This document shows, piece by piece, positions 18,363 through 53,616 of a stretch of 63,974 nucleotides of DNA (position 1 is its first letter; every line of letters begins with the position of its first letter). Both the position numbers and the translations under genes were made by a program. Location of the stretch: positions 1 to 63,974 of the IMG/VR virus record IMGVR_UViG_3300036785_000518. One strand, written 5' to 3'. The notes beneath the pieces were generated by a model. It had not been told where the DNA came from. It searched no databases and saw only the letters and a program-made list of their open reading frames with translations. This DNA is from a virus.

Positions 18363-21300
18363 ATGGCGCTGACGCAATCTCAAATTGATACGGAGATCAA
18401 TACGACACTGCCGTCGGGCAAGCCTGGCGGTATTTTGGCGGCCGATGTCCGCACGGTTTTACACGACATCAATGCGGCGGTGTTTTCTGGAACGGGCACG
18501 TCCGTTTCGACGATCGCTGCGATGCAGGGCATCGTCAGTCCTCATGACGGCGACGAGGTGTATGTGACCGACCCGCTAACGGGAGGGCCCTTCGTCTTCG
18601 AAACGGTGGACCACTCCATTGATGTGCTGCACGATCCTGGAAGAGGCATCTTTGCTTCACCGCTCGCCCCAGGTGATCCGACCGGCGCGGGCGGCGCTTG
18701 GAAGCGGCGGTACAGCGGGCCTGAGCGTCTTTCATGGTGGGGCGTCAAATCGGACGCCAAGGTGATCGACCCCTTCGGTTTAGACATGTTGCAGACGAAT
18801 GTCATAGCAACATCAGTGGGGGCGACGTATGGGGCTGGTGCCGTCGTCCGGCTTCAAGTCGTCTCGACGGCTGGAATCGCTACTGGCGATTATTGCTACG
18901 TCAACAATGTTACCGGCACCACGCAGGCCAATGGATCATGGAACGTCACCGTCATAGACCCTACTCATATTGATTTAAGTCACGGGAGCGGCACGAGCAC
19001 TGGCGCTTTGTGGGGCTCTGGCCCTGTCGGGTCCGGCGGCATCGTGCAGGACGGCGCGACGGCCGGTCCGCATATTCTTCCGGGCTTTACCGATAATACC
19101 CAGATGCTTAGCAATTGGCAGGTTTGGGCAATCTATCGATCTGCCAAGCCGAGCCCGGTGTTCGGTGCCGCATCCAGCGACGGCGGCACGACGACAACGC
19201 TAACGATCGGCAACGCTTGGCCTTTGTTGTCAGGCGAAACCGTCACGGTAGTCGGTGTTGCAGGAAGCGGTGGGTTTAATCCGAACGGAACTTGGACGGC
19301 CACATTCATTGATGGCACCCACATCAAGATACCATACGCATTTCCTGGTGGTGGGGCTTGGACGTCGGGTGGCTTCGTGCATGGATCTCGGGGCGGGCAT
19401 GATATCCATGTCATGGCCGATGACGGAACGGTATGCTGGCGCAGTGGAGGCACGGTCTCAAATATCACCAACTTGCCTCAGTTCGACGGCAGCGGTCAAT
19501 TCAGTGGTCTATCAGTCGGGCTTGCCACAACTAATTATTTATGGGTGGCTGGAATACTTAATTTGACCGTCGAATGCGACAACGGCAATTGCTCCTTTCA
19601 AAACACACTTGACATGGCGCATGGGGCATCGAGCGTTGGTGTGACGGTTGCATTTCCATCCCGCGGCACTGGGGCCGCCGGATATAACACGAGCTATTTG
19701 ATTAATCAAACGGTTCCAGGAACCAGGACGTTTAGCTTCGTCAATCCGGCTGACGCGGCTCACGTGTATCTCGGTCAGCGCGTAGTTTTGACGAGTTTTG
19801 ATACGCAATATCTAGGTGGGCCGCCTAATCCACAGTATTATGAATTCCATGAGGTCTCTGGAATTGATGTCGTAAATGGCATCGTTAGGGTTGTCGACGA
19901 CATTCAATATGAGCACCGCACCGATTTCCCGGATTTCAACCTAAGCGGTCCGGGTTATGCAATCGGACGTGCCCGCATGTGGATTCCGTATGGCTATTGG
20001 GGCAGGTACATACTCAAGAATATCGGCTGTAATGCAATGGTGGGCTATTTGAATGACCCGCAGACGCCAAATGTAAATTACGCCAACGTTAGTGGGTTTT
20101 ACGTAGAAACAAATAACTGGAGAGGAGTTTCGTTTTCTGAAAGTGGCGCACAAAGCATTATTCATTACAATTCAATTGAAAATTCGATTGGAGAGACGGA
20201 TAAGACTATTGATTCATTGACGCGTATAAATTGTCAAAACAAATATTCTGGGATGAGTTTGCAGAGCCCGTGCCCGAAGCGGTTGATTCTGGATGGGGGA
20301 GATTACGCTGCGCTCGTTGGACTTGGGCAGAATGTTGTGGCCAAAAACACCTATATTGGTCTACTACAAATGAGTTGCGCCTATGGGTATTCGGCAGGCG
20401 GTATATTTTCTGGATGCAAGATAACAAAGGTCAGTTCTTCAGGCATAATTGATGGTTCTCAACTTTGCCCCATTGGCCAAAACACGGTGGTAGGAGTTGG
20501 TGCCGGTGCGATCAATCCTGCAGGCGGCAATTACGTAAGGCTCACCGTCATCAACACGAGCCAGTTTCAGGTCACCGGTGCGCAAGGATACATGGTAAAT
20601 GTGTCGGGGGTGCAGGGGACTGGTACGCTTCCGGCTGCTACGAACGGCGTATGGAGCGTGTTTATCGTAGACGGGACGCATATTGATCTGGTGGGATCGA
20701 CCTTCCCTGTAGGGCAGACGTGGACATCGGGCGGAAGCCAGCAGGTGGAGAATACTGCCCAGGTCAAAGTGACGGGTGCGAGTGTCGTCAGCTCTCATGT
20801 TCGCTTGACTGTTCCGTCCACAAAGATGGCGGTTGGGGATACGCTGACGATATTCGGAATCGTCGGTGCGGTCGAGGCCAACGGCACGCAGGTGATTTTT
20901 GCTATTCCTGATCCCACCCATGTCGACTTGGTATTGGCGACTTGCAGCACCTACGTGTCGGGCGGCGTCGTTCAAGACGCCAGTCTGATGACTATTACCG
21001 GCGCGGTCAGCAGCACCGGAGCGGCCGGTGGCTTGGTCCGTATCACAATGAGCGCAGCGGCTGTCGGGCGGTTACGGACCGGTGATTATATCCAGGTGGC
21101 CGGAGTTCAGATGACGGGATCGACCGTCATCAACGGAACCTGGCCGGTTTCAAAATTCAGCTCGACGCAAGTTGATCTCTTGGGCACCAACTTCCTTGCC
21201 GGTGATGCCTACGTCCCAGGAGGGTCATTTACAGGTTCAATCATCGGCAACACGCTGACGGTGAGTAGCAACACGGGAATTGCGCCTGGACAGGTTCTTC

Positions 21301-22262
21301 TGGGCGCCGGCATTGCCAATGGGACGACGATTCTTGCATACAATAGTGGAACTTCGTGGGCGGTCTCGATTCCGCAAACGATTGCAAGCGAGGCCATGAC
21401 GACCGCGGGAGCGGTGCAATTTTTCTCCGGGGCGACGTTCGCTGATGGCGTGATCTCACTTAGCAAAGCCGGAATGAGTTATGCGCTGTCCCTAACTTGG
21501 AGCGCTTGGGTGCCGGGGCAATTCTTCGGTGTTCAAGGTCAGGCCGGGTACAACTTTGCGGTCTCAACTTATTCTGGCCTTGGCATGGTCAGACAGATCA
21601 CCGAGGACCCGATCAATATCTACATAATCACCGATCTTCCTTACGAGACGCTGCCGTCGTGGGCTCTTGCTAATGCTATAGGATATCCACAAGTTTTTAA
21701 CTTCCGTGTTGGTGACGTGAGATTTGATAACTGCTGGGGTGGCCCTCATGCCAAGGCATTTTCTCTCGCATGCGCTCGTGGGCACGCGTATTATGAGGAT
21801 GTTGAATACACATTTTCCGATCCGGTATCGGCTAGCCTTACGTATCCAAGCGGCGAGATTACTGCGCTTGAAATAAATGTTTTTAAGCCATCGCCAACAA
21901 CTTGGAACCTTCAACTTCTGACTGCCGATGTCAGGTCTGGTCTTGTATTGGATGGGGCTGGTCAGGGATTGCAGATTAGCATCAATGGTTCGGTCACTGG
22001 CAAGCGTCGCTTGACGGAAGACGGAAGTATTCTTTTAAGTGGAGACACATTCACCGTCGCCGGCAGCGGGGCCGCCGCGATACCGCTAGGGCGTATTGTG
22101 GCCAATTCAACTATATTAGGTGGGTTGGTGTCGAATTATTATATGTCCCCAATCATGACAGTGCGTTACATAAGCGACGGCGGCATTGCCAGGAGGGGGC
22201 TCGGTTATCTAAAAGACGCCAGTGGTAACACTCTCGTCACCATGAAGGGTACGCCACCATGA
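18363..22262 (+). CDS. Large modular fibre/tailspike-like protein with E1-FCCH-like repeats
   Basis: 1299 aa. After an N-terminal segment of about 150 residues it contains at least six beta modules with the recurring pattern GDxxxVxxVxG...NGxWxVxxIDxTHIDLxGS...SGG (for example near residues 185-210, 290-330, 760-800, 840-880, 900-960). These recall the repeats annotated in phages as 'ubiquitin-activating E1 FCCH-like'. Between them are stretches resembling right-handed beta-helix spike sequence, with many Asn, Gly and aromatics. Such proteins usually bind host surface polysaccharide. Its place between terminase and portal, away from the tail genes, is unusual. Family-level call; receptor unknown. 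Confidence 0.65.
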   Translation: MALTQSQIDTEINTTLPSGKPGGILAADVRTVLHDINAAVFSGTGTSVSTIAAMQGIVSPHDGDEVYVTDPLTGGPFVFETVDHSIDVLHDPGRGIFASPLAPGDPTGAGGAWKRRYSGPERLSWWGVKSDAKVIDPFGLDMLQTNVIATSVGATYGAGAVVRLQVVSTAGIATGDYCYVNNVTGTTQANGSWNVTVIDPTHIDLSHGSGTSTGALWGSGPVGSGGIVQDGATAGPHILPGFTDNTQMLSNWQVWAIYRSAKPSPVFGAASSDGGTTTTLTIGNAWPLLSGETVTVVGVAGSGGFNPNGTWTATFIDGTHIKIPYAFPGGGAWTSGGFVHGSRGGHDIHVMADDGTVCWRSGGTVSNITNLPQFDGSGQFSGLSVGLATTNYLWVAGILNLTVECDNGNCSFQNTLDMAHGASSVGVTVAFPSRGTGAAGYNTSYLINQTVPGTRTFSFVNPADAAHVYLGQRVVLTSFDTQYLGGPPNPQYYEFHEVSGIDVVNGIVRVVDDIQYEHRTDFPDFNLSGPGYAIGRARMWIPYGYWGRYILKNIGCNAMVGYLNDPQTPNVNYANVSGFYVETNNWRGVSFSESGAQSIIHYNSIENSIGETDKTIDSLTRINCQNKYSGMSLQSPCPKRLILDGGDYAALVGLGQNVVAKNTYIGLLQMSCAYGYSAGGIFSGCKITKVSSSGIIDGSQLCPIGQNTVVGVGAGAINPAGGNYVRLTVINTSQFQVTGAQGYMVNVSGVQGTGTLPAATNGVWSVFIVDGTHIDLVGSTFPVGQTWTSGGSQQVENTAQVKVTGASVVSSHVRLTVPSTKMAVGDTLTIFGIVGAVEANGTQVIFAIPDPTHVDLVLATCSTYVSGGVVQDASLMTITGAVSSTGAAGGLVRITMSAAAVGRLRTGDYIQVAGVQMTGSTVINGTWPVSKFSSTQVDLLGTNFLAGDAYVPGGSFTGSIIGNTLTVSSNTGIAPGQVLLGAGIANGTTILAYNSGTSWAVSIPQTIASEAMTTAGAVQFFSGATFADGVISLSKAGMSYALSLTWSAWVPGQFFGVQGQAGYNFAVSTYSGLGMVRQITEDPINIYIITDLPYETLPSWALANAIGYPQVFNFRVGDVRFDNCWGGPHAKAFSLACARGHAYYEDVEYTFSDPVSASLTYPSGEITALEINVFKPSPTTWNLQLLTADVRSGLVLDGAGQGLQISINGSVTGKRRLTEDGSILLSGDTFTVAGSGAAAIPLGRIVANSTILGGLVSNYYMSPIMTVRYISDGGIARRGLGYLKDASGNTLVTMKGTPP

Positions 22263-25306: not shown

Positions 25307-25660
25307 ATGGTCTCCTATGTTTCGGTCGGGGCCATCCTGATCATTTTCAACATTTGCGTGGCCGCGTTTTGCAGCAGCCATAGTAGCGATCATAAGAAGT
25401 TTGCGTTGCGCCGCCTGCGTGAAGCAGCTCGGCGCAAGCGCCGTATGCGCAAGGCGGCAGATTCGCCGCGGCTGCCGAGGCATTTGGTGATGGCGACCCA
25501 ACCGCCTGCTGACGACGGCTACGACCCTACCGACGATCTGCGCAAGAGCATCGAGTTCGCCTATACGGCCATCCGCGAGCGCGTCGCCGCTGGTGGCAAG
25601 GGTTGGAGTGGTTGGCCCGCACCGGATGATCATGTGAAAGGGACTGCGGAGGATGGTTGA
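25307..25660 (+). CDS. Membrane-anchored hypothetical protein
   Basis: 117 aa. One N-terminal transmembrane helix (VGAILIIFNICVAAFC) followed by a very basic cytoplasmic stretch (RRLREAARRKRRMRK) and an acidic/Trp-rich end. It overlaps the portal start by eight bases. Function unknown. Confidence 0.55.
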   Translation: MVSYVSVGAILIIFNICVAAFCSSHSSDHKKFALRRLREAARRKRRMRKAADSPRLPRHLVMATQPPADDGYDPTDDLRKSIEFAYTAIRERVAAGGKGWSGWPAPDDHVKGTAEDG

Positions 25661-27227
25661 TCTGTCTAACATTGTCCGCTTCCCGCGCGCCTTCTTCAGC
25701 GGGCTGACATCCGACAGCTTCCAAAATTTCCTCGCCGGCTTTGGTGTGCCCGGCCGCGACAAAGCAACAGCTCAAACATGGTGGTTATGCCCGCTCGGCA
25801 CCGACCAGTTGGAGGCCGCGTATCGCGGCGACTGGGCGGCGCGCAAGATCATCGACATTCCCGCTTTCGACATGACGCGCGCGTGGCGCCAGTGGCAGGC
25901 GAGCAAGGAGCAGGTCACGAAGATCGAAGACACCGAGCGGATGTTCAACATCCCCGGCAAGATGATGGACGCCCTGGTGAAGGCGCGCCTCTATGGTGGC
26001 GCCGCGATGATCATGGGCGTCGACTGCGGATCGTTCCAGGATGAGCTGGACCTCGACGCGATCAAGCAGGGCGATCTCAAGTTCGTGCACGTTGTCAGCA
26101 AAAACTTCCTCGCCGCTGGCCCGATGGTGCGCGAGATCACATCGACGTGGTACGGCGAGCCGACTTGGTACATGCGGGCCAACACCGTCACCACCGATCC
26201 GCCCGACCCGCGCATTGCCAATGTCGGTCTGCCGACGCTGGGGCAAGCGCCAGGCGATGCGATCTACATTCATCCATCGCGGGTGATTCGTCTGGTCGGC
26301 GCCGCCTATCCAGACCTTGAGACCGCGCAGGACGCGTGGGGCGACAGCGTGTTGCAGGTGGTGCAGGACGCGCTCAAGTTCGCTGGCATGGCGTCGTCCT
26401 CGATCGCGGCGATGATCGCCGAGGCCAAGCTCGATATCTTCAAGGTGCCGAACCTCACCGCCAAGATGATGACGGCGGAAGGCACGCAAGAGCTGTTCAA
26501 TCGGTTCAGCCAGGGCAACGTCGGCAAGAGCACGATCAATGCGCTGCTGGTCGATCTGGCCGAAGAGTTCGAGCGCATCACGCCGCAGCTATCGAACTAC
26601 GACAAGGTGATCTCGATCTATTACATGCTGGCGTGTGCCGCGGCGGACATCCCGGCGACGCGCTTCATGGGTAAGTCGCCTGACGGCATGAATGCGACCG
26701 GCGAGAGCGACATCAGAAATTACTACGATCGTCTGTCGTCCGATCAAAAAGTTAAATACACGCCGCTACTCACGCGGCTCGACGAGGTGCTGATCAGGAC
26801 GACGTTCGGCTCGCGCGACAAGACCATTCGCTACGATTGGAATCCGCTGTGGCAACTGTCGGCGGTTGAGAAGGCCGACATGAACCTGAAAGCGTCGCAA
26901 GCGCATCAGATCGACGTCAACGCAGGGATCATCTCACCCCACGTATTGCAGACCGGGCGGCAGAATTTCTTGATGGAGGATGGCTTTCTCTATCCTGGAA
27001 TTGAGCAGGCGATCGACGAAGAGGACGAGTGGGACGCCGAAGAGGGCATGCAGCTCGGCATGTCTGGCGGCATGCTCGATCCCAACGATCCCAATGTTAT
27101 CGAGCACAAGGCGTCGACCGGAGCAAAGTACGCGCCGCCACCACCGCAAGAGCCACCAAAAGGGCAGGGGCAGCCTCCGCAAGGGCAGCCGCCGCCACCA
27201 AAAGATAACGGCGGAAATGGCCGTTAG
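25653..27227 (+). CDS. Portal protein (DUF1073)
   Basis: Forms the dodecameric DNA channel of the head. 524 aa with DUF1073 features: an N-terminal GTDQLEAAYRGDWAARKIIDIPAFDMTR, a central clip/stem region, and the hallmark TRFMGKSPDGMNATGESDIRNYYD near residues 338-360. The C-terminus is acidic and then Pro/Gln-rich. Length is typical. It precedes the head morphogenesis gene as in many phages, though a homing-type gene intervenes. Confidence 0.9.
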   Translation: MVDLSNIVRFPRAFFSGLTSDSFQNFLAGFGVPGRDKATAQTWWLCPLGTDQLEAAYRGDWAARKIIDIPAFDMTRAWRQWQASKEQVTKIEDTERMFNIPGKMMDALVKARLYGGAAMIMGVDCGSFQDELDLDAIKQGDLKFVHVVSKNFLAAGPMVREITSTWYGEPTWYMRANTVTTDPPDPRIANVGLPTLGQAPGDAIYIHPSRVIRLVGAAYPDLETAQDAWGDSVLQVVQDALKFAGMASSSIAAMIAEAKLDIFKVPNLTAKMMTAEGTQELFNRFSQGNVGKSTINALLVDLAEEFERITPQLSNYDKVISIYYMLACAAADIPATRFMGKSPDGMNATGESDIRNYYDRLSSDQKVKYTPLLTRLDEVLIRTTFGSRDKTIRYDWNPLWQLSAVEKADMNLKASQAHQIDVNAGIISPHVLQTGRQNFLMEDGFLYPGIEQAIDEEDEWDAEEGMQLGMSGGMLDPNDPNVIEHKASTGAKYAPPPPQEPPKGQGQPPQGQPPPPKDNGGNGR

Positions 27228-27390: not shown

Positions 27391-27909
27391 ATGACGTATA
27401 CAAAACATCATTATTATATGTACTTTAGAAACATGATAACGAGGTCTATAAGGGACGGACTTCCTTGTAAATACAATAGAGGTGCAGAAATGTTTTATCA
27501 ATTTTTAGAAGATGTAGGACAAATACAAAAAGGCATGGAGACTCCGACAATTGGCAGAAAAGATCACAACAAAGGATATATCTTCGATACAAAGAGTAAT
27601 AGACTGAATTTCGCATGGCAATCAATGATTGATAACAAAAGAGAGTCGGCACTTAGAGCGGCTGCGCTTGGAAAGACACCTTTGCAAACCGCGACTAAAG
27701 AACAGCGTTCAGAACGTGGACGTAAATCAGCTGAACATCACAATCATGTTAATAAGCAAGAGTATACTCGTTATTCGTGTGGACTTACTGGTAAAGGGGC
27801 TAATATGCTTCGCTACCATTTTGATAATTGTAAAAGAAGGTATATTCATATGATTGAATATATGAAGCCTATTGAACATCCTCAGATGATGTTGTCCTTC
27901 GGTAGTTGA
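27391..27909 (+). CDS. Divergent HNH-type homing endonuclease, A+T-rich insertion
   Basis: 172 aa. The layout follows phage HNH homing enzymes: an aromatic N-terminal stretch with YMYFRNMITR, then FYQFLEDVGQIQKGMETPTIGRKDHNKGY, NRLNFAWQ and DNKRES, in place of the usual L-x-R-x-D-N-x-G-x-Y...N-x-R-W. The C-terminus YSCGLTGKGANMLRYHFDNCK resembles the DNA-binding zinc knuckle found at the end of T4-like homing enzymes. Codon use is strikingly A+T-rich compared with both flanking genes. Catalytic residues are not all obvious, so it may be degenerate. Confidence 0.65.
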   Translation: MTYTKHHYYMYFRNMITRSIRDGLPCKYNRGAEMFYQFLEDVGQIQKGMETPTIGRKDHNKGYIFDTKSNRLNFAWQSMIDNKRESALRAAALGKTPLQTATKEQRSERGRKSAEHHNHVNKQEYTRYSCGLTGKGANMLRYHFDNCKRRYIHMIEYMKPIEHPQMMLSFGS

Positions 27910-32728: not shown

Positions 32729-33676
32729 ATGTTTTTCCGCGATATGCCTAACGAACAAGCCGCCCTGAGCTTCTTGGTAAGTCAGATCACTTACATAGAG
32801 CCGGTCGTTTACCGCATAAAATATCCAGATTTGGTTTGGCGGGATTTGATTCCGGTCGACAGCTCTGGAAGCGAGTGGGTTAAATCGATCACGTTCTTCT
32901 CGATCGATCACGTCGGCGCTGCGGATTGGTTCCACGCGCAAGCGCAAGATGTGCCTCTGGCAGATGTCGTTCGCGCGAAGGGCGAGGTCGCCATCGAAAT
33001 GGGTGCCATCGGTTACAGATATAATACCGAGGAATTGGCACAATCGATGATGATACCTAACTTCAGCCTCTCGACCGAGCGAGCAAGTGCTGCTCGTCGT
33101 GCGGCAGAAGAGTTTCTCCACAATTGCTCCATGTATGGCAATACTGCCAAAAACTGGCTCGGCCTTACTAATCATAATCTGCCTGCGGTTATTAACACCG
33201 CACATACTTGGGCGTACGATCTCGCGCAAGCGCCTCCGCTGATTCAAGCGATGCTCAACGACGTCAACCTCGCGCTGACGAACATCTGGCAAGCGTCTCT
33301 CGGCATCGAAATGGCCGACACGCTCCTATTGCCGTTCTCCGCGATGTCGACGATCAACATGGCCCAGCTGCCGAACACCACGATGAACGTGTACGACTGG
33401 CTGCTGAAGAACAACATCTACACGCAGCAAACCGGGCAAGCGCTCACCGTGCGCGCGGTGCGCGGCCTCGATACCGCGGGCACCGCTGGCGGCGGCCGCA
33501 TCATCGCGTACCGGAAGGACCCCGAGATCGTCAAAGTGCACGTGCCGATGCCGCATCGCTTCCTGCCGGTTTGGCAAAGGGGGCCATTGACCTATGATGT
33601 CCCGGGGGTGTTTCGCACAGGAGGCCTGGAGATCAGGCGGCCTGGCGCGATAAGGTATGTAGACGGCGTTTGTTGA
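32729..33676 (+). CDS. Major capsid protein (DUF2184)
   Basis: 315 aa forming the icosahedral shell (HK97 fold). DUF2184 features: FLVSQITYIEPVVYRIKYPDLVWRDLIPVDSSG near the start, EMGAIGYRYNTEEL, and a C-terminal PHRFLPVWQRGPLTYDVPGVFRTGGLEIRRPGAIRYVDG. TAGGAGAG gives a strong ribosome site. Size and position after the cement protein are as expected. Confidence 0.9.
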   Translation: MFFRDMPNEQAALSFLVSQITYIEPVVYRIKYPDLVWRDLIPVDSSGSEWVKSITFFSIDHVGAADWFHAQAQDVPLADVVRAKGEVAIEMGAIGYRYNTEELAQSMMIPNFSLSTERASAARRAAEEFLHNCSMYGNTAKNWLGLTNHNLPAVINTAHTWAYDLAQAPPLIQAMLNDVNLALTNIWQASLGIEMADTLLLPFSAMSTINMAQLPNTTMNVYDWLLKNNIYTQQTGQALTVRAVRGLDTAGTAGGGRIIAYRKDPEIVKVHVPMPHRFLPVWQRGPLTYDVPGVFRTGGLEIRRPGAIRYVDGVC

Positions 33677-38153: not shown

Positions 38154-38740
38154 GAATTAACGTCGACACTTCTGATCTGCTGAAGTGGTCGCGCTACATG
38201 AACCGTATCCCGAAGAAGACGGGAGCGGCGATCGCTCGCGGTTTAAACACCGTCGGCGACAACATCGTCCACAACGCCGCGCAGGCGATGGCGGAAACCA
38301 CCGGTCTCGATCCCAACGACATCATCGAGCTTATCGAGGTGAAGAAGGCGACCGCCGACGATCTCAAATGGTCGATGGACGCGAGCAAAGTGGCTCCGCC
38401 GTCATTGGATTGGTCGCGGCCGTGGGATAAGAGAACCGGATTCGACGATCGCACACTGGTGAAGGTGGTCACCAGCTTTGACAAGCTGGTCTGCGACAGG
38501 TGCCTGGCTGTCGAAAAGAACTCGCCCTATACGCTCGAAGAAGTCAATTCGATGAATCCGTATGGCAACGGCATAGTGCATCCGAATTGCCGTTGCATGG
38601 TGCAGGCGTGGTACGCGACCCGCCAGCTGCCGGTGACGTTCGGCCGTGGCGCCAAGTCGCAGCTTTTCACGATGCGAGAGCTTGGCGAGAAGGTGGCAGA
38701 AGAGTTGAAGCTCACCATCAGAGCGATCGACAACAGCTGA
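38075..38740 (+). CDS. HK97 gp10-like tail protein fused to a Mu F-like Cys domain
   Basis: Up to 221 aa. A gp10-like N-terminal half (RINVDTSDLLKWSRYMNRIPKKTGAAIARGLNTVGDNIVHNAAQAM) is followed by VCDRCLAVEKNSPYTLEEVN...HPNCRCMVQAW, the Cys/His domain normally seen in head morphogenesis proteins. The start is ambiguous. ATG 38075 has GGTGGGA upstream. A CTG at 38150 has GGCGAGGG, gives a natural N-terminus and avoids a 79-base overlap with the membrane gene. Confidence 0.7.
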   Translation: MALPAFGDSLLDRVGITRWIGEGLSLRINVDTSDLLKWSRYMNRIPKKTGAAIARGLNTVGDNIVHNAAQAMAETTGLDPNDIIELIEVKKATADDLKWSMDASKVAPPSLDWSRPWDKRTGFDDRTLVKVVTSFDKLVCDRCLAVEKNSPYTLEEVNSMNPYGNGIVHPNCRCMVQAWYATRQLPVTFGRGAKSQLFTMRELGEKVAEELKLTIRAIDNS

Positions 38741-38754
38741 TACGGGGAAACACC

Positions 38755-39384
38755 ATGCTTGATCCGATGCAGAAGGTCCTGTTCGAGCTGGCCGAGCACC
38801 GCAGAAAGGCCGCAACCAGCGACCGCATGGGCACCGTGCATGAGGTCTACAAGGACAAGATGCGGATCAACATGGGGCTGCAGGCCGACGGCACGCCGTG
38901 GCTCTCCCCGTGGCTGCACACTACCGATCACCGCGGCGGCACCACCGAGCGTGACTTTTACCGCAAGGGGCAGAACGTGAGACTCGCCGCGGTTGGCGCC
39001 GACTTCCGGCAGGCGACGGTGTCGGCCTATGCCCCCAACGACGCCAATCCGCCACCGGCGCAAGCCGACAGCGCGGGCCCGAACTCCAAGACTTTGCAGG
39101 CGGGCCCGGTGCGCACGACGGTCGACGCCGACGGATCGCACAACGTGTGGATCGCCGACGGCGACAAACCTTCGATGATCTATCGCGCCGATCAGTCTGG
39201 CTTTCTCACCGGCCGGGTCGGCGAGGGTAGCAAGTCGTTCCGCTTTGCAGCGACTGACAAGGGCGTCCACATCAGCCACGGCAATGGCGACAAGTCGATC
39301 TGGGTCACTGAGGACGGCTGCTTCTGTAGTGAGCCGCTGAAGATCAGCAAGAACCCGCTGAAGTTCGACGACGATCATAAGTGA
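38755..39384 (+). CDS. Baseplate spike protein V (P2 gpV / gp45-like)
   Basis: 209 aa. The N-terminal OB fold is visible: GTVHEVYKDKMRINMGLQADGTPWLSPWLHTTD, then GQNVRLAAVG. The C-terminal part is beta-prism-like (TVDADGSHNVWIADG; FRFAATDKGVHISHGNGDKSIWV) and forms the trimeric membrane-piercing spike. It heads the P2-like V-W-J-I baseplate order, interrupted here by small genes. Confidence 0.82.
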   Translation: MLDPMQKVLFELAEHRRKAATSDRMGTVHEVYKDKMRINMGLQADGTPWLSPWLHTTDHRGGTTERDFYRKGQNVRLAAVGADFRQATVSAYAPNDANPPPAQADSAGPNSKTLQAGPVRTTVDADGSHNVWIADGDKPSMIYRADQSGFLTGRVGEGSKSFRFAATDKGVHISHGNGDKSIWVTEDGCFCSEPLKISKNPLKFDDDHK

Positions 39385-39399
39385 AAAGGAAAGAGCACC

Positions 39400-39618
39400 A
39401 TGGCAATGGATTTTGGTGGCGCGCTCGACCACCTCATGAACGGCGGTTCGGTCTATCGCGAGAACAAGGGCGAAGACACCTTCCTGACGCTTCTTGACCC
39501 TGGCCCCAACAGCCAGATGACCGAGCCATACATCTACGTCACCTATTCCGACAACAGCGTCGTGCCGTGGTGCCCGCGGCATGGCGACATCCTCGCAACA
39601 GACTGGAAGAAAAAGTAG
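39400..39618 (+). CDS. Tad2-like anti-Thoeris protein (DUF2829)
   Basis: 72 aa. The whole length fits DUF2829: MDFGGALDHLMNGGSVYR (opening helix and strand), a central strand TFLTLLDPG, EPYIYVTYSDNSVVPW (43-57) and the terminal DILATDW (63-69). Tad2 proteins of this family sequester the cyclic ADP-ribose-type signal of Thoeris defence and so block abortive infection. Its position inside the baseplate operon is unusual for an early-acting inhibitor. Family call is strong; activity not shown. Confidence 0.82.
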   Translation: MAMDFGGALDHLMNGGSVYRENKGEDTFLTLLDPGPNSQMTEPYIYVTYSDNSVVPWCPRHGDILATDWKKK

Positions 39619-39627
39619 GAGGGTCAT

Positions 39628-39882
39628 ATGCCGAAGTCGCCACGTCATACTCGCGCCGCCATGAAGGCGGGCAAGGCTGCGCCCGAGATCAAAGCGTATG
39701 TCATTACTGATCCGCATCATCGTCCCGACATGCGCGGCGAGTTCGCTGGCGTGAAGGTGCGCAAGATGGGCATGCAGCAGCTCGTCGACCTCACCGACAA
39801 GCAGGCCAAGTTCTATCTCGATAGCGGTGCGATCAGGCCGCTGCTGGCGCCGTCCGAATCTGAAGACAAGCCGGCGGCATAG
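39628..39882 (+). CDS. Hypothetical small protein
   Basis: 84 aa behind AGGAGGGTCAT. Basic start (SPRHTRAAMKAGK), a short beta/helix region (KMGMQQLVDLTDKQAKFYLDSGAIRPL) and an acidic end. Similar short proteins flank tail genes in other phages, possibly an assembly accessory. Not recognised. Confidence 0.6.
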   Translation: MPKSPRHTRAAMKAGKAAPEIKAYVITDPHHRPDMRGEFAGVKVRKMGMQQLVDLTDKQAKFYLDSGAIRPLLAPSESEDKPAA

Positions 39883-39884
39883 CC

Positions 39885-40670
39885 GTGAGCAACGGCACGA
39901 AACGTTTCTACGTCTACGCCATCATGGTCGACGGCGTGGTCAAGTACATCGGAAAGGGTACTGGGCCACGCGCACGCTTTCACCGTTGGTTCGCCGTAAA
40001 TGTAAACAGGAGGCGAAAACGCGGTGAAAAGGTCAGAACGACAAAGTTCTATAATCGACTGGCGAAGGCGCTGTTAAAGGGGGCAGTAGTTAACTATGAG
40101 ATTCTAGCCTGGTTTGAGACGGACGACGAAGCTTTCGCTGCGGAGATTGCGGAAATCGCATCGCGTCGAGGGCTATGGAATAAGCACGAGGGTGGCTGGG
40201 GGTTCAATTCTGCAAACAGCAAAAGGCTCAGTGCTGACCCAAGGATTAAAGCGATGCGCCGCGAGGTTGGTGGCCGGATAATGAGCGCTCCAGGTCACAT
40301 CGAAAAGATGCAGGCTGGCCGTCTTCGGCCAGAAGCAAAGGAAAAATTCAAGGCGTCGATGGCGCCATTTTGGGGAAGTGAGCGACATCGTCAGATAGCT
40401 GTAGCCAATGGCACCAAGCATATGGCTGATGCTGAAAATCGTAAGGCCGCATCCGAGAGATTAACGAAACTGATGGCTGGCCGCGGTAAAGAAATCATTG
40501 CCGCCTCCAACCGGCGGCGAATGCTTGACCCAGTACAGGCGGAAAGAACGAGAGCTGTCTTAGCCGCAGCGAGAGATCGCAACAACAAAGACCCGAAATT
40601 CCAAGCCAAACAGCGAGCTGGGGTGCAAGCGTACTGGTTGAAGAAACGGGAGGAACGCGGCCATGAGTAA
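39885..40670 (+). CDS. GIY-YIG homing endonuclease
   Basis: 261 aa from a GTG at 39885. The N-terminus FYVYAIMVDGVVKYIGKGTGPRARFHRW is a GIY-YIG catalytic fold (Y-V-Y...Y-I-G-x-G-x-x-x-R). The long C-terminal half is basic with repeated helices (NRKAASERLTKLMAGRG..., RTRAVLAAARDRNN) that should bind DNA. It is a mobile gene inserted in front of baseplate W and overlaps it by eight bases. Confidence 0.82.
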   Translation: MSNGTKRFYVYAIMVDGVVKYIGKGTGPRARFHRWFAVNVNRRRKRGEKVRTTKFYNRLAKALLKGAVVNYEILAWFETDDEAFAAEIAEIASRRGLWNKHEGGWGFNSANSKRLSADPRIKAMRREVGGRIMSAPGHIEKMQAGRLRPEAKEKFKASMAPFWGSERHRQIAVANGTKHMADAENRKAASERLTKLMAGRGKEIIAASNRRRMLDPVQAERTRAVLAAARDRNNKDPKFQAKQRAGVQAYWLKKREERGHE

Positions 40671-41250
40671 CGGCGATCCGCTCGCTGCGAATCAAGTTAT
40701 CATTAGGTCAGGTGTAGATTTTCCAGTTGTTGATAATAACTTTTTTCGGAGTGTGAACGGAATCTGGCCCGATCTTCTCAGCGGCAAGGCGATCATCTCG
40801 CCTGCCCGCAACGGCATGGATCGCAAGACCGGCAAGCTGCTGCAGGGCTGGGATCATGTCTCGCAAAGCATGGAAGTGATCTTTGCGACGCCGTTCCACG
40901 AGCGGGTGCTGCGGCGCTGGGTCGGCAGTTTCGTTCCAATCCTGCTCGGCGAGACATTCGTCGCGCGCGTGGTGACGAGGTTTTACTGGGCGATTGTCGC
41001 GGCGATCGACTTGTGGGAACCGAATTACCGCATCAAGCAGATTTACTTCATGGGCGATGCACTCACCCAGTGGTCGCCGCTCACTACGACCAGCGCTGCC
41101 GATATGATCCAGCTCGGCGAAGCGATCTTCCGCAACGAGGGTGTCTATCGGCCGCGCGCCCACCTCGGCGACTTCACCCAGTACATGCAGAAGCAGAGTG
41201 GCTTGATCGGGCGTGGCGACCTGCTGTGGGACGTGCAGCCGTTTCCATGA
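40663..41250 (+). CDS. Baseplate wedge protein W / gp25-like
   Basis: 195 aa. The gp25/W signature is PARNGMDRKTGKLLQGWDHVSQSMEVIFATPFHERVLRRWVGSFVP, near residues 47-92; gp25 family members join the wedge to the sheath. The N-terminal 40 and C-terminal 50 residues are longer than in P2 W. The start overlaps the GIY-YIG gene. Confidence 0.82.
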   Translation: MSNGDPLAANQVIIRSGVDFPVVDNNFFRSVNGIWPDLLSGKAIISPARNGMDRKTGKLLQGWDHVSQSMEVIFATPFHERVLRRWVGSFVPILLGETFVARVVTRFYWAIVAAIDLWEPNYRIKQIYFMGDALTQWSPLTTTSAADMIQLGEAIFRNEGVYRPRAHLGDFTQYMQKQSGLIGRGDLLWDVQPFP

Positions 41251-41745: not shown

Positions 41746-42759
41746 ATGCCGTCGAACCTCGTCTCAACAAACCCGTCGAGGTTCAATGTGATTCGCCCCG
41801 AGCTGCTTAGCCCCATGGCGGTGCTCGAAAAGATCGACACCGAGGCGCTGATCACACAGCGCATGAACAAGGTGATCGAGATATGGGCGTCGTACGATCC
41901 GCCCAATGCGGCGCAGTACGACGTCGGCGCACTTGAGTTCGATCCGATCCGGATCAATCAGGAACTCAATGCCTACTTCGAGCTGTTGGTGCGCGACCGC
42001 GTCAATCAGGCGTGCCGTTCTGTTACGCTGGCGTTCGCGGTCGGCAGCGACCTCGATGCGATCGGCTCGCGCTATCCCTATGGAATGCCGCGGATGGCTG
42101 GCGAGAACGACGACACTTATCGTCGCCGCATTTGGTTGTCGCCCAATATCCTGAGCTTGTCCGGCACCGGCCAGGGCACCTTCGAGAGCTACGTCTTCTG
42201 GGCGCTGTCGGCGCCGATGTTTCCCGGCGATGTCCCGCTCAAGCATGCCTCGGCGCTGACCAAGCCATACACCGGCAACGTCTACCTGCCGATCCTGTCG
42301 TCGGCGATCGCCAACCCGGATTACAATTGGACGGTCTCGATCGACGGCAAGATATGGACGCTTATTCCTGGCACGCAGCCGGTGCCGACATCGACGCAGG
42401 TGGAGGCGGTGTTCGAGTACATCACTGCGCCGGACACCGCGCGCAAGGGGTTGACCGACGTCATTAACGTTCTGCCGCCCAAGGTGGCGCCGGTTCTGAT
42501 CGATGTTCAAATCTGGCTGTTCAACGGTATTGATCGCGACACGCTGATGGCGGTGGTGACGCAGGCAGTCGCTGATCTGATCGAGGGGTTGCGCTGGCTC
42601 GGCGCCGATCTCACGCTGCTAACGTTGTCGGGCGCGCTGGCGCAGGCGGGTGTCTATAACACCAAGATCATGTCACCGGCAGCCGACGTGATTGTCGACA
42701 TCGACGGCGTTGTCAACGTTATTTCGGCAACCTTGCGGTATATGGGCCAAGGAGAGTGA
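41746..42759 (+). CDS. Baseplate protein J
   Basis: 337 aa. The gpJ layout is clear: an N-terminal helix region (DTEALITQRMNKVIEIWASYDPPNAAQYDVGALEFDPIRINQELNAY), the central AVGSDLDAIGSRYPYGMPRMAGENDDTYRRRI, and a C-terminal FEYITAPDTARKGLTDVINVLPPKVAPVLIDVQIWLF. It forms the outer baseplate together with W and I. Start preceded by TAGGAGAGC. Confidence 0.88.
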   Translation: MPSNLVSTNPSRFNVIRPELLSPMAVLEKIDTEALITQRMNKVIEIWASYDPPNAAQYDVGALEFDPIRINQELNAYFELLVRDRVNQACRSVTLAFAVGSDLDAIGSRYPYGMPRMAGENDDTYRRRIWLSPNILSLSGTGQGTFESYVFWALSAPMFPGDVPLKHASALTKPYTGNVYLPILSSAIANPDYNWTVSIDGKIWTLIPGTQPVPTSTQVEAVFEYITAPDTARKGLTDVINVLPPKVAPVLIDVQIWLFNGIDRDTLMAVVTQAVADLIEGLRWLGADLTLLTLSGALAQAGVYNTKIMSPAADVIVDIDGVVNVISATLRYMGQGE

Positions 42760-43010
42760 AGGTGGGTGTCTCCGGTCCCGACTTTGATGATGATTACCAT
42801 CCTGGCGATTTCGAAGTTTTCATCAACGCCGTCAAAGTCGTTAATTTGCAGGCACAAGGACTGACGATTGGGACGCCTGTTTCTATCGCTTTGCAAGCGC
42901 AAGGATTGGTTGTCGGCTTACCTGTTTTCGGTCCAGCATCGGTCAAGCTAAAATATAATTTCCAGGCATTTGGCCTGACGATCGGCTTGCCGAGGCCTGT
43001 AAATGGCTGA
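42756..43010 (+). CDS. Short protein with LTIG-P repeats
   Basis: 84 aa from a GTG that overlaps the J stop (GTGA). After an acidic start (DFDDDYHPGDFEVFINAV) it has three repeats like those of the next protein (LQAQGLTIGTPV, LQAQGLVVGLPV, FQAFGLTIGLP). Probably a baseplate partner or a split-off part of protein I. Confidence 0.65.
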   Translation: MKVGVSGPDFDDDYHPGDFEVFINAVKVVNLQAQGLTIGTPVSIALQAQGLVVGLPVFGPASVKLKYNFQAFGLTIGLPRPVNG

Positions 43011-45540
43011 CTTCTCTCATGGCGATTTCGGTTCCCAAGACTTTTTTGTCAACATCGATCTAGGGACGTCGCCGGGCCTAACGGTCGGATCGCCTGTCAT
43101 TCCTGTACTGACGATTGGCGCCAAAAGCATTTTGCAGGCGCTGAGCTTGGCGGTTGGATCACCGGTCCTCGATGTGCCGATCGTTGGCGCCAAAAACAAT
43201 TTGCAGGCGTCGAGTTTGGCGGTCGGCTCACCGGTCATCGGTGTGGCGACGCTCGTCGCCACGGGCGGTGCGCAGAGTTTGACGGTCGGGTCACCGACAT
43301 TCGGTGTGGTGACTCTCACCGTCAAATACAATCTGCAGACGTTGGGTTTGACGGTTGGCTCACCTGCCATTCCTGTGCCAACGATTGCCGCCATAAGCAA
43401 TTTGCAGACGTCTGGCCTGACGGTCGGTTCACCGGTTCTTGGTGCGACGACACTCAGGAAAAATCTGCAAGCGCAGAATTTGACGGTAGGTTCGCCCGTC
43501 ATCGATGCGATGACGATCGACGTTTCGCAAAAGAATTTCCAGCCGCCTGGCGTGACCGTCGGATCGCCGATCCTCGGCGCGCCAACGATTGCCGGCAATC
43601 ACTACCTGCAGGCGCTTTACCTGACGTCCGGCTCACCAGTTCTCGGTGCGCCGACGATGAATGCGGCACTGGCAAGTCTGCAGGCGCTGGGGCTGGCGGT
43701 TGGCTCGCCGGTCTTCGGTGCCCCGACGATCGGCCTCAAATACAATCTGCAGGCGCAGGGGCTTACGGTCGGGCCGTCGGCCCTCGATGCGGCGACAGTC
43801 AACGTCACAAGCAATCTGCAGTCGCAGGGGCTGAGTGTCAGTTCGCCCGTCCTTAATGCCGCGCCGGTCGGTGTTACAAGCAATCTACAGGCGCAGGGGC
43901 TGACCGTCGGTTCACCGACCATCGGCGCGGCATCGATCAACGCCGGTCACGATCTTCAGACCCAGGGGCTGACGGTCGGCTCGCCGGTCATCAATGTGGC
44001 GTCCATCAACGCCGACGTGATCAAATTACGGGCGCAGGGCTTCGCGGTCGATGTCCCGGTCCTCGGCGAGCCGGAGGGATCGACCAGGGACCTGTTCGCC
44101 GTCGGCATGTCCGCAGGCACCCCTCAGATCGACGTGCCGCTGCTTCAGCAGAACGATCCGATCACCCCGGGCATTCTGCCTACCGCTGGCGAGGACCTGC
44201 TGTACAGGCAAGCCACGGGCCTGGAGAAGGCACTGGCGACGGTCGACGGCTATCGGCTGATCGCCACCTATGCCGAGATCATTCGTGACCAGTGGGACCC
44301 CTACGCAATTCGCTACATGAATCTGCCCTATCTCGCCTGGGCAATGGGAGTGAATCTTTGGGAAGAGGATTGGGACGAAACGTTCCGGCGCTGGTGGGTC
44401 GCCAACCAATGGGAGCTGAAGAGCCAGCGCGGTAGCCTGCTCGGGACCAAGCGCTTCGTCGAAGCGGTCGGAGGCAAGGTCGTCAAGGCCATCGTGCCAC
44501 CCTCGAAGTTTTTCCCGACCACGAGCTACACCGATGCGGACCGCGCCGCCTACGTCGCCCGCTTTCCGCAGCTGCGATTGTATCCTTTCGTCGGCCGGGT
44601 GCAGCTGCCTTACCTGTGCTTCCCTGCCAAGATTTTGATCGGCGCTCCACCCAATCAGACCAAGAAGTTCACCAAGAACGGCAACTTCACCGGGCCGCTG
44701 CGAAAGTTCTATCCGACCGCGCAGGATGCTGGCGGCAACTACACACGGACCGCGACGCTATGGGATCGCGGGATCGAAACCCAGCTGACGTTCCGCACCG
44801 TCACCGACTTCAATGCGAAGTATGGCGTGACCACCTACGACGAGGTCATGCTGCCCGCTCGCCTCAACAACCATTACTACATGGGCGAGGATGGCAAGTA
44901 CCTGCTGCCGAAGGGCCATCCGACGCGGCAGAACAAGTACGGCATTTTCCTCGGCGCCGACGACGGCACCCTGGCGCGCATGATCAGAATTCCGCGCGAC
45001 GGCCGTCTCAATCTTTCGCAGGCCAAGGCGATCTATCAGACCATCGTGCCAGGCGGTCAGTTGATCAATCTCTATCCGGACTATGTCGCAGAGATACATC
45101 CGACCGCGAAGACGCGGTTGTTCGGCGGCGTCGGCAAGGTCAAGCAGTTCATGCAGGGGAAATATCTGCCGCCGACCTGCTCCTGGCAGTTTCTCTATGA
45201 GCGCTGGTATATCCTCGATCGAGATCGCGCGCCCGACTACCGCAAGGGCTGGACCTACATGGGCGTGGCGAGACTCGGGATACCTCGCTACAGCGCCGTA
45301 TTGAAGATCGAGATGTTCGGTGTGTGGCGTCCGTGGTTCCTCCGGATCGGCGGCTTCATGCGCGGCTGTACGCGCGCGCCCGACACCAGCGCGATCGACA
45401 AGCTGCGCCGCGCCGTCACTGCCTCGATGGCGATAAGGGACACCGTCGGCATAGACACAAAAGTCAAGCGCGTCATCTCAACAAACGACAGCCTGCCGAT
45501 CGATGGAACGTATACGGTCGGCGAGTATATTAATGATTAG
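43003..45540 (+). CDS. Tail protein I with N-terminal tandem repeats
   Basis: 845 aa. Residues about 22-375 are around 16 repeats of 22-24 residues with the consensus NLQAQGLTVGSPVIGAPTI. A protein I domain follows from about residue 400 (LLYRQATGLEKALATVDGYRL; WDPYAIRYMNLPYLAWAMGVNLWEEDWDETFRRWW; QRGSLLGTKRFVEAVGGKVV). A unique C-terminal region of about 330 residues completes it. Ordinary gpI proteins are about 180-250 aa, so this is a large multi-part baseplate protein. The repeats may form a beta-solenoid or fibre-like arm. Confidence 0.85.
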   Translation: MADFSHGDFGSQDFFVNIDLGTSPGLTVGSPVIPVLTIGAKSILQALSLAVGSPVLDVPIVGAKNNLQASSLAVGSPVIGVATLVATGGAQSLTVGSPTFGVVTLTVKYNLQTLGLTVGSPAIPVPTIAAISNLQTSGLTVGSPVLGATTLRKNLQAQNLTVGSPVIDAMTIDVSQKNFQPPGVTVGSPILGAPTIAGNHYLQALYLTSGSPVLGAPTMNAALASLQALGLAVGSPVFGAPTIGLKYNLQAQGLTVGPSALDAATVNVTSNLQSQGLSVSSPVLNAAPVGVTSNLQAQGLTVGSPTIGAASINAGHDLQTQGLTVGSPVINVASINADVIKLRAQGFAVDVPVLGEPEGSTRDLFAVGMSAGTPQIDVPLLQQNDPITPGILPTAGEDLLYRQATGLEKALATVDGYRLIATYAEIIRDQWDPYAIRYMNLPYLAWAMGVNLWEEDWDETFRRWWVANQWELKSQRGSLLGTKRFVEAVGGKVVKAIVPPSKFFPTTSYTDADRAAYVARFPQLRLYPFVGRVQLPYLCFPAKILIGAPPNQTKKFTKNGNFTGPLRKFYPTAQDAGGNYTRTATLWDRGIETQLTFRTVTDFNAKYGVTTYDEVMLPARLNNHYYMGEDGKYLLPKGHPTRQNKYGIFLGADDGTLARMIRIPRDGRLNLSQAKAIYQTIVPGGQLINLYPDYVAEIHPTAKTRLFGGVGKVKQFMQGKYLPPTCSWQFLYERWYILDRDRAPDYRKGWTYMGVARLGIPRYSAVLKIEMFGVWRPWFLRIGGFMRGCTRAPDTSAIDKLRRAVTASMAIRDTVGIDTKVKRVISTNDSLPIDGTYTVGEYIND
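43069..44130 (+). repeat. Tandem DNA repeats coding the protein I arm (about 16 units)
   Basis: Units of roughly 66-72 bases recur, each with the pattern AATCTGCAGGCG...GGCTGACGGTCGG(C/T)TC(A/G)CCGGTC. The most regular copies are between about 43735 and 44010, and the first and last are degenerate. Related units continue upstream at about 42840-43005 in a different reading frame. Confidence 0.85.
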
Positions 45541-51171: not shown

Positions 51172-51707
51172 CGCGCTGCAACGGTCGCTTTCATTTTGGC
51201 GATGGCTTCTTTGCTGCGTTTTGTGCCCTTCAGGTGATGGCCGTTGATGCGAATGCGTTCGCGCGTTGCTGCACCGACCTTTGCGCGCGCTTGGACTGAC
51301 AATGGTTTTCCTAATCGAGATTGACGGATTACCTCGATCTGTTCTGGCGTTCGCACCTTGCCCTTGTTGCCAAGGCCAGTTTTGCGCTTGTGCTCTTCTG
51401 TCTTCGGCTTGCGCATTTTCTCACGCGTGGCCTCGCAGTGTGTTCGCGTGTACCCGGCAGGACCACCAGCGGTGAGGTTCCAGCCAATGCCAGCGTGCGG
51501 ACGCAGCTCGCGTTCGAGCGCGTAGCATTGGTCCTCTGTGCCCGTGAAAAGAACCTCGGCTTCAAACAACGAAGTGCGGCGCTTCCGATGCCGTCGCACC
51601 CGATCATCGAAACGACAGGTAACACCAACGTAACCATGCTGCCGATGGTCGGTACACGATGTGTCGAAAAGCCAGTAGACAATCCACAACGAAGGAGATA
51701 TACTCAT
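51111..51707 (-). CDS. GIY-YIG homing endonuclease with NUMOD3-like tail, antisense
   Basis: 198 aa from the ATG at 51707. The catalytic half shows WIVYWLFDTSCTDHRQHGYVGVTCRFDDRVRRH, with Y-V-G and an Arg as in GIY-YIG nucleases, and AEVLFTGTEDQCYALERELRP. The C-terminal basic repeats (TEEHKRKTGLGNKGK, SVQARAKVGAATRERI, RSKEAIAKMKAT) are NUMOD3-like DNA-binding motifs. It lies antisense between fibre and sheath genes; its start codon overlaps the sheath start. Confidence 0.8.
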   Translation of the reverse strand: MSISPSLWIVYWLFDTSCTDHRQHGYVGVTCRFDDRVRRHRKRRTSLFEAEVLFTGTEDQCYALERELRPHAGIGWNLTAGGPAGYTRTHCEATREKMRKPKTEEHKRKTGLGNKGKVRTPEQIEVIRQSRLGKPLSVQARAKVGAATRERIRINGHHLKGTKRSKEAIAKMKATVAARQNSKPDGISISSSAVELTV

Positions 51708-53616
51708 GAGTAATCCCACCTTTGGGTTGCAATTTATTCAGGTCGACGACCAACCGCAACCTATAGTAGGTGCCAACATGGACGTTGTTGGCATCATCGG
51801 CCCGGCCGCTTTGGCCGATCCGAACATCTTTCCGTTCGACACCCCAGTCCTCGTCTTCTCCAACGACACGGTCACCCTCGCGAAGCTCGGCACCGACGGT
51901 TATATTCCGGACGCGATCAATGGAATCAATAACCAACTGGCGGACTTTGAGATCGCAGCTCAGATGGTGATCGTGCGCACCGACTATGGTTCGCAGAGCG
52001 ACGCCAATCTGAAGCTGCAGCAGACCATCGCCAAGATTATGGGCAACTCGACCGCGGGCACCGGCGTGCACGCGTTTCTCAAGGCGCCGAACCTGCTCTA
52101 TTGCACGCCGCGCATTATCGTTGCGCCCGGTTATACCGGCCAGATGGCGAACTCGCTCGACACCCTGGTCGCCAACATCGTCGGCGTCGGCTACATCCCC
52201 GGTCAAACTTATCAGGTGACGTTCACCCCCGGCATCGGCGAGACCAATGGCGCCAACCTCGTGTTGCCGCAGGCGCACGCGGTGGCCGACGTGAACGGCG
52301 AGATCGATGATGCGCAAATCTTTATCGACAGCTGGGGCGCGTGGTTCACGGTAGCGCCGACGGCGACGCTGCCGCCCTATGACGGCACGCCGATGGCGGC
52401 GCAGCAGGCGACCGGCCAGATCGTGTTCTCGGGCCAGCCCGGCGTCGGTTCGAAGATCACGTTCAATTCTCAGGACGTGACCTTCATCGCCAAGGCGACC
52501 ACGGCGGCCGCGTTCCAGGTCAACCTCGGCGACAACCTCGATGCGACGCTCACCAATCTCGTCACCTATCTCACGGGCGTCGCCGCGCAGGCCAACGCCA
52601 ATCTCGGGCTGTGTAATTACCAGAAGACGCTCGGCGATCTACTCGCGCTCAACATCACCTACAAGGCGGCGGGTGTTGCGGGCAATAGCTTCACCCTCAA
52701 CTCGACGGTGACTGGCGCGTCGTGGCCGCCGCATCTTTCCGGCGGTGTCGCCGCTCAGATCGCGGCCAATGGCACCCTCACCGCCACCATGGCGCTCGGC
52801 GCGAACCCGGTATGTGCCGAGCTGACCGGCGTGCTCGACACTCTGATCGCTCACGCCATTGTCGAGAGCGCTGGCAGCTCGACGATCGCCGATGAGAACT
52901 GGCGCGATACTCTCAACAGCCAGCGCCTGATCGGCCTTTCCGGCGGCTGCAAGGTGATCGATCCGGCAAGCGGCAACATCATCGTGATGCCGCTGGCGCC
53001 GCGGGCTGCGGGCGCGATGGTCGCTGAGGACTTCCGCACCGGCTATCCGTTCCACTCGTTCGCCAATCGCGCGGTGCAAGGCATTGTCGGCCCAGCGCGC
53101 ACCATCGCGTTCTCGCTCACCGACGGCGCCACCGAGGGGCAGCTGCTGCTCGCGGCAAACCTCGGGATCATGGTGCGCGGGCTGGTGGGGGTCGAGACCG
53201 CGATCAGCTCGGGCGGCTTCATCCTGATCGCCACCGACAATATGGGCGACGATGAATTATGGAGGATGTACAACGTAAAAAGAGGTAGGGATTACATACA
53301 CTTGTCACTGATGCCTGCGCTGCGGGTTTACCTTGGCAGAACCAACATCGATCGTCAAACCGTCGCCAACATCGAAGAGACGATCGCCAACTTCCTGTCC
53401 CAGCTCACCGCGTTGCAGCAAATCCTGGGCTATCAGGTCAGGTTCCAGGGCAACCTCAACTCAGCCGACGAAATCAGGCTCGGCCATCTCACGGTGAGCT
53501 TCGCTGCCGAAGAGCCGCCGGTCCTGAAGCGTATCACCACCATGAGCGCGCGATACAAGCCGGCCATCGATGCCCTCGTATCCCAACTGGCTGAACAGCT
53601 TACGTTTACTGGCTGA
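51706..53616 (+). CDS. Contractile tail sheath protein (gpFI-like)
   Basis: 636 aa subunit of the contractile sheath. The first about 200 residues (VDDQPQPIVGANMDVVGIIGPA; AAQMVIVRTDYG) and last about 250 residues (NGIVGPARTIAFSLTDGATEGQ-type region, then NIEETIANFLSQLTALQQILGYQVRF) match the gpFI family. A domain of about 130 residues inserted near 245-370 is the same beta module as in the cement protein. AAGGAGATATACTC is an excellent ribosome site. It defines the virus as a myovirus. Confidence 0.88.
   Translation: MSNPTFGLQFIQVDDQPQPIVGANMDVVGIIGPAALADPNIFPFDTPVLVFSNDTVTLAKLGTDGYIPDAINGINNQLADFEIAAQMVIVRTDYGSQSDANLKLQQTIAKIMGNSTAGTGVHAFLKAPNLLYCTPRIIVAPGYTGQMANSLDTLVANIVGVGYIPGQTYQVTFTPGIGETNGANLVLPQAHAVADVNGEIDDAQIFIDSWGAWFTVAPTATLPPYDGTPMAAQQATGQIVFSGQPGVGSKITFNSQDVTFIAKATTAAAFQVNLGDNLDATLTNLVTYLTGVAAQANANLGLCNYQKTLGDLLALNITYKAAGVAGNSFTLNSTVTGASWPPHLSGGVAAQIAANGTLTATMALGANPVCAELTGVLDTLIAHAIVESAGSSTIADENWRDTLNSQRLIGLSGGCKVIDPASGNIIVMPLAPRAAGAMVAEDFRTGYPFHSFANRAVQGIVGPARTIAFSLTDGATEGQLLLAANLGIMVRGLVGVETAISSGGFILIATDNMGDDELWRMYNVKRGRDYIHLSLMPALRVYLGRTNIDRQTVANIEETIANFLSQLTALQQILGYQVRFQGNLNSADEIRLGHLTVSFAAEEPPVLKRITTMSARYKPAIDALVSQLAEQLTFTG

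Follow-up and report, generated by a model that had tools for sequence, protein, structure and literature searches.

Tad2-like proteins are usually called anti-Thoeris from a domain match alone. One such protein, of 72 aa, is encoded between baseplate genes in the window analysed here, which spans the entire 63,974 bases of a virus record. The question raised by this locus is which signal, if any, the protein would capture, and why it would be made together with structural proteins.

The predicted product of 39400–39618 (+) is MAMDFGGALDHLMNGGSVYRENKGEDTFLTLLDPGPNSQMTEPYIYVTYSDNSVVPWCPRHGDILATDWKKK. Pfam-A named PF11195 Tad2-like (formerly DUF2829) as its sole family, with an E-value of 8.6e-14 and a score of 52.3 bits against a curated cut-off of 25 bits, and residues 3–70 aligned with positions 1–71 of the 73 in the profile. 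There was no match for the protein in NCBIfam and none within the window in Rfam. SPO1 Tad2 (8sme) was the top-ranked phmmer match in the PDB (E 4.8e-5). The AlphaFold (AF2) monomer model, built from 54 input sequences, had a mean pLDDT of 94.6 and an element order of helix 5–13, strands 17–20, 28–32, 44–48 and 54–56, helix 61–65 and strand 69–71. The best 24 Foldseek matches in the PDB were Tad2 or AcrIIA7 entries only (TMq 0.75–0.90), and the first match after them had an E-value of 0.5. The protein is thus certainly Tad2-like in family and fold, far beyond chance, and the DUF2829 gene proposed in the preliminary description is confirmed, including by the profile search suggested there as a check. 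Residues F5, A8, R20, G24, P34, S38, M40, T41, P43, Y44, V55, P56, W57, D63, L65, D68 and W69 were invariant scaffold positions in the first comparison set.

The V-like spike, tad2, g84, GIY-YIG, W (gp25), J and I genes form a P2/Mu-type baseplate cluster (Table 1). The placement of the gene in a baseplate operon, as originally described, is therefore borne out by the V-like spike upstream and by GPW_gp25, Baseplate_J and Tail_P2_I downstream. The window also encodes a capsid protease and a cement protein, with a tail tube protein and P2 GpU beyond the baseplate cluster; a sheath-like match at 51706–53616 was under the Pfam cut-off. No near-identical known phage was found for 25–49 kb of the window, and the closest known capsid proteins, at 43.5 %, were those of Rhizobium phages.

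Table 1. Positions of the tad2-like gene, its altered loops and the surrounding genes in the window
Feature	Position	Strand	Basis or remark
Terminase	16899–18353
Portal	25653–27227
Major capsid protein	32729–33676		PF09950
V-type spike/baseplate gene	38755–39384	+	Position and sequence, V-g84-W-J order in relatives; no library match
V-tad2 gap, 15 nt	39385–39399	+	Shine-Dalgarno-like AAAGGAAAG
tad2-like gene	39400–39618	+	72 aa, ATG start; PF11195 profile match, AF2 model, Foldseek
b1-b2 loop codons, residues R20–D26	39457–39477	+	REN-KGED replaces family R-x-G-W-N-G-K-G; alignments
b4-a3 loop codons, residues W57–D63	39568–39588	+	WCPRHGD replaces W(L/V)(A/P)SQTD; alignments
g84, small conserved gene	39628–39882	+	Directly follows V in relatives without tad2; weak phrog_2322 E 0.019
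GIY-YIG homing-endonuclease-like gene, inserted	39885–40670	+	phrog_314 E 2.4e-8
W-type baseplate wedge (gp25 family, GPW_gp25)	40663–41250	+	phrog_43 E 3.8e-18
Baseplate J (Baseplate_J)	41746–42759	+	PF04865 E 1.4e-5; phrog_6 E 3.6e-25
Tail protein I domain (Tail_P2_I) after repetitive N-terminal part	43003–45540	+	PF09684 E 2.3e-13

The stop of tad2 lies 9 nt from g84, and a Shine-Dalgarno-like stretch is present in this gap as in the one between V and tad2. It had been proposed that the gene might be expressed from its own signal, but a private promoter was rejected, as a scan of 38700–40800 with the sigma-70 consensus gave no promoter-like site; other promoter types could exist. Nothing was found in support of, or against, the further proposal that the protein may be carried in the virion. 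Judged from its position, tad2 would be translated along with the baseplate genes and would hence be a late product.

Several neighbouring features were recorded alongside. The GIY-YIG gene occupies the position between g84 and W only in the window phage and its near-identical contig; it is missing from L004, L005 and L208, its ends alone are retained in L003, and in the relatives L029 and L215 a GIY-YIG gene lies elsewhere in the baseplate cluster. The g84 gene has no clear family; at least 13 related contigs conserve it at 41–80 % identity in the interval from spike V to W, and it may be a so far unrecognised component of the baseplate module. The N-terminus of the tail protein I gene is a long array of LQAQGLTVGSP-type repeats (42756–44200), the same repeat occurs in the small gene ahead of it, and DNA self-matches across the array are 64–73 %. 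Between portal and head genes, a 172-aa ORF (27391–27909) without a PHROGs match has a GC3 of 0.31 against about 0.75 in most neighbours and looks like a recent import. Between terminase and portal, a 1299-aa ORF (18363–22262) has unusually flat codon-position GC and a sub-threshold E1_FCCH match only.

The DUF2829 pattern had initially been read over all 72 residues. This stands for MDFGGAL, PYI, VVPW and DILATDW, all of which were found, but not for R-x-G-W-N-G and SQTD, the strongest two motifs of the family, both of which are replaced. PRHGD stands where most homologues carry (A/P)SQTD, LLDPG replaces LQxPD, and the near-invariant Q32 and D35 positions are changed. The loop Trp was kept in 158/158 and 57/57 IMG/VR homologue loci, two overlapping sets in which some of the 215 loci are counted twice. 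Trp-Asn-Gly was present in the loop of 16/16 phage homologues from annotated records, nearly all of which also had SQTD, and the only two rows of a 54-row alignment without the Trp were the window protein and L003, its sister at 99 %. The Tad2s of solved structure (SPO1, SptTad2, HgmTad2/AcrIIA7 and ModTad2) all retain it.

In the published structures, the gcADPR pocket is formed by the b1-b2 loops of both protomers, the b3-b4 loop, b4, the b4-a3 loop and helix a3, whereas cyclic dinucleotides are bound via an insertion between b2 and b5, and helix a2 is used in the tetramer (PMC12043709). Loops 21–27 and 57–61 of our model were taken as b1-b2 and b4-a3, a mapping of our own from element order, and the comparison follows the loop-level description in that review rather than single contact residues. 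The two replaced loops are among the elements lining the gcADPR pocket, so the changes fall in the pocket. The model has neither an a2 helix nor the HgmTad2-type b2-b5 insertion; the insertion is likewise absent from other compact homologues.

The family and fold originally proposed thus hold, but the further step to capture of the Thoeris signal is not supported in the form proposed, both gcADPR pocket loops being replaced. The simplest version of that step is an ordinary Tad2 that sequesters 1''-3' gcADPR as SPO1 Tad2 does, the loop changes being immaterial. The shared family and fold and the retention of R20, G24, W57, D63 and D68-W69 are in keeping with it. Against it, the loop Trp, the Asn and the SQT triplet of both pocket-forming loops are absent, the Q32 and D35 positions are also altered, and Trp-Asn-Gly is retained in every gcADPR-, cADPR- or His-ADPR-associated Tad2 structure; we regard an ordinary Tad2 as quite unlikely. 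As the Trp is kept throughout the homologue loci, binding could have been lost in the window protein. An AcrIIA7-like inhibitor of type II CRISPR-Cas would also fit the family, since PF11195 includes AcrIIA7, deposited as such an inhibitor, and 8kbi–8kbm and 9kzr (AcrIIA7/HgmTad2) were among the fold and profile matches. Those fold matches were weaker than that to SPO1 Tad2, however, and the long insertion of the AcrIIA7 group is lacking, making this activity very improbable.

Loss of the best-conserved family motifs might equally mark a decaying remnant heading for loss. It was found, however, that the altered loops are common to divergent relatives: the window protein and the Tad2s of L208 and G013 (66–68 % overall identity) all carry YRENKG(E/K)D and PWCPRHGD, the sequence in both relatives being YRENKGKD and PWCPRHGD. 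Between the window and L208, 1/14 loop positions and 23/57 others differed (24 differences, Fisher P 0.015), and between the window and G013, 1/14 and 22/57 (23 differences, P 0.020), in a small test for which the loops were picked from the structural description and in which the two comparisons share much history. The reading frame is intact in seven contigs. Within the window clade, dN/dS was 0.015–0.023 at a dS of 0.25–0.39, with one amino-acid change over 10–14 synonymous changes, indicating purifying selection; it was 0.030 for L208 vs G013 and 0.25–0.33 for the window vs either. Decay, already contradicted by the selection data and the loop conservation, was rejected as extremely improbable. 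That selection appears to have kept the altered loops is well supported by their presence in divergent relatives and the low dN/dS within the clade.

In the tree, the variant formed one group with 99/97 support on a long stem, and its nearest neighbour was L047 (G009) with 97/77 support, little else being resolved by the 83 columns used. Dedicated scans found the variant in six IMG/VR contigs only, and two scans of cellular genomes found no relatives of it. The Tad2 proteins of L208 and G013 are 88.7 % identical against 48–72 % for V, W and J, which raised the suspicion of horizontal transfer; this was rejected because dS between the two tad2 genes is saturated (1.91). The pattern, with a dN/dS of 0.25–0.33 for the window against both, is therefore better read as a probable acceleration of protein change along the branch of the window.

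Five relatives have tad2 in precisely the V-g84 slot: L002, near-identical to the window; L003–L005, with about 84–92 % DNA identity over the cluster; and L208, whose W and V are 85 and 77 % identical to those of the window. Another 13 related contigs that carry V, g84 and W (L025–L030 and L209–L216, L213 and L029 being the same contig) have g84 directly after V with no tad2 between, and the junction measured 13–17 nt in the four in which it was read (L025, L026, L028 and L029). The 66-kb relative behind L029 has no tad2. G013, one of the 13, has the gene at another site, where the tad2 start and the terminase stop overlap (TAATG); the product is 67.6 % identical to the window protein. The empty V-g84 slot in related phages and the other site in G013 lend good support to tad2 being accessory cargo able to occupy more than one late slot.

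This distribution also bears on whether the Tad2 fold was repurposed for a non-immune late task, such as small-molecule binding or help with assembly in baseplate morphogenesis. The gene is always within late structural operons in the clade, the canonical ligand loops are gone, and selection is as tight as on baseplate proteins, all of which would suit such a task. A baseplate or virion structural component should, however, be required or conserved wherever the module occurs, and the gene is absent from the slot in 13 contigs and moved in G013, where it follows terminase outside the baseplate cluster. Close relatives with the V-g84-W-J module manage without tad2, and canonical Tad2s also adjoin late genes. 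A repurposed fold is accordingly considered unlikely.

The late position had been described as unusual for an inhibitor that must act early, which is not upheld by the placement of other Tad2-like genes. For Klebsiella phage IME346, the DUF2829 gene lies between, and overlaps, TerL and a DUF1073 gene, and in L047 it directly follows a portal-size gene in the head cluster (assigned by size and order); the G013 copy is a further late placement. The gene adjoins packaging or lysis genes in Curiosium, MalagasyRose, CBW1004C-Prop1, Pm86 and Louie and is found amid other genes in SPO1, PaBG, XC38 and Ahp1. About 50 compact Tad2 loci gave 110 neighbours, in which families of portal, terminase and capsid proteins come up repeatedly. 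In total, 412 phage records carry DUF2829, as counted with a hand-written consensus probe used solely for this purpose. Staphylococcal Thoeris is set off by the major head protein, which is made late (PMC12578639), so a sponge made late would appear with the trigger and there is no timing paradox. Repeated settlement of Tad2-like cargo in late operons fits defences triggered by a capsid protein.

Taken with the family, fold and selection, these patterns suggest that the product is likely a sponge for an immune nucleotide. Our preferred explanation, held with moderate confidence, is an accessory, late-made signal sponge with the Tad2 fold and a remodelled pocket. Such a sponge would appear at the same time as a capsid protein able to switch on TIR-based defence, would presumably oligomerise, and would bind and hold the immune signal and thereby counter the defence. 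As the two most conserved signal-binding loops are lost and a different conserved pair is kept, that signal would probably be a TIR product other than, or held differently from, that of canonical Tad2. Counterpoints to the sponge are the possible loss of binding along with the Trp and the lack, in the model, of the a2 helix of the published tetramer, no structure of a compact homologue having been solved; characterised Tad2 sponges are homotetramers whose two pockets are each shared by protomers. A bolder form, a late-operon Tad2 subfamily co-made with the capsid trigger whose rebuilt pocket (RENKG(E/K)D / WCPRHGD) captures a nucleotide bound by no known sponge, is conceivable but doubtful. 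The domain is certain and the loops, unlike those of any characterised member, are yet kept by selection, and the locus therefore offers a clean test of reading Tad2 specificity from two loops and might lead to an as yet undescribed TIR-derived signal.

Among known systems, SPO1 Tad2 (gp34.65; 8sme, 8smf, 8smg and 8wje) shares PF11195, the fold (TMq up to 0.90), the FG-x-AL helix, the R-strand and the W...D.LA.DW end. The window protein is 17 aa shorter, lacks a2 and the insertion, and has RENKGED and CPRHGD in place of RSGWNGKN and VPSQTD; its gene belongs to a late operon, and SPO1 tad2 to a series of small gp34.x genes. HgmTad2/AcrIIA7 and SptTad2 (8kbi–8kbm, 9kzr and 8wjd) have a similar fold (TMq 0.75–0.82) but carry between b2 and b5 a long insertion associated with cyclic dinucleotide binding (PMC12043709), which the window protein lacks. 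The closest annotated phage homologues, at 32–41 % identity, are the compact DUF2829 proteins of PaBG, Curiosium, MalagasyRose, XC38 and Ahp1, which are alike in length (71–78 aa) and in the S(K/R)MT(x)PY segment but all retain R-x-G-W-N-G and SQTD. In Aeromonas phage Ahp1_CNU-2021 (L009 7983–9911), the Tad2-like gene adjoins a nicotinamide phosphoribosyltransferase gene, plausibly as a paired counter to NAD-consuming defence. The domain also occurs fused to an uncharacterised N-terminal part, forming the C-terminal part of longer proteins in L011, L039 and L040 (Pm86 ORF47, N4 gp49 and Louie CDS0064). ModTad2 of a Myroides odoratus prophage (8v3e; 9eib with His-ADPR) is alike in fold (TMq 0.85) and, in a working sponge, departs from SQTD in its b4-a3 loop (SVSD), but at about 30 % identity it retains GWNGKG and has the insertion. 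The solved ligands already differ, being gcADPR for SPO1 Tad2 and His-ADPR for ModTad2, so that variation in the b4-a3 loop is already seen among Tad2s that differ in specificity. The Tad2 of L047 comes nearest to the variant, with SPRQSD, a shortened b1-b2 loop and a similarly late site, but its loop Trp is still there (REGWVDT).
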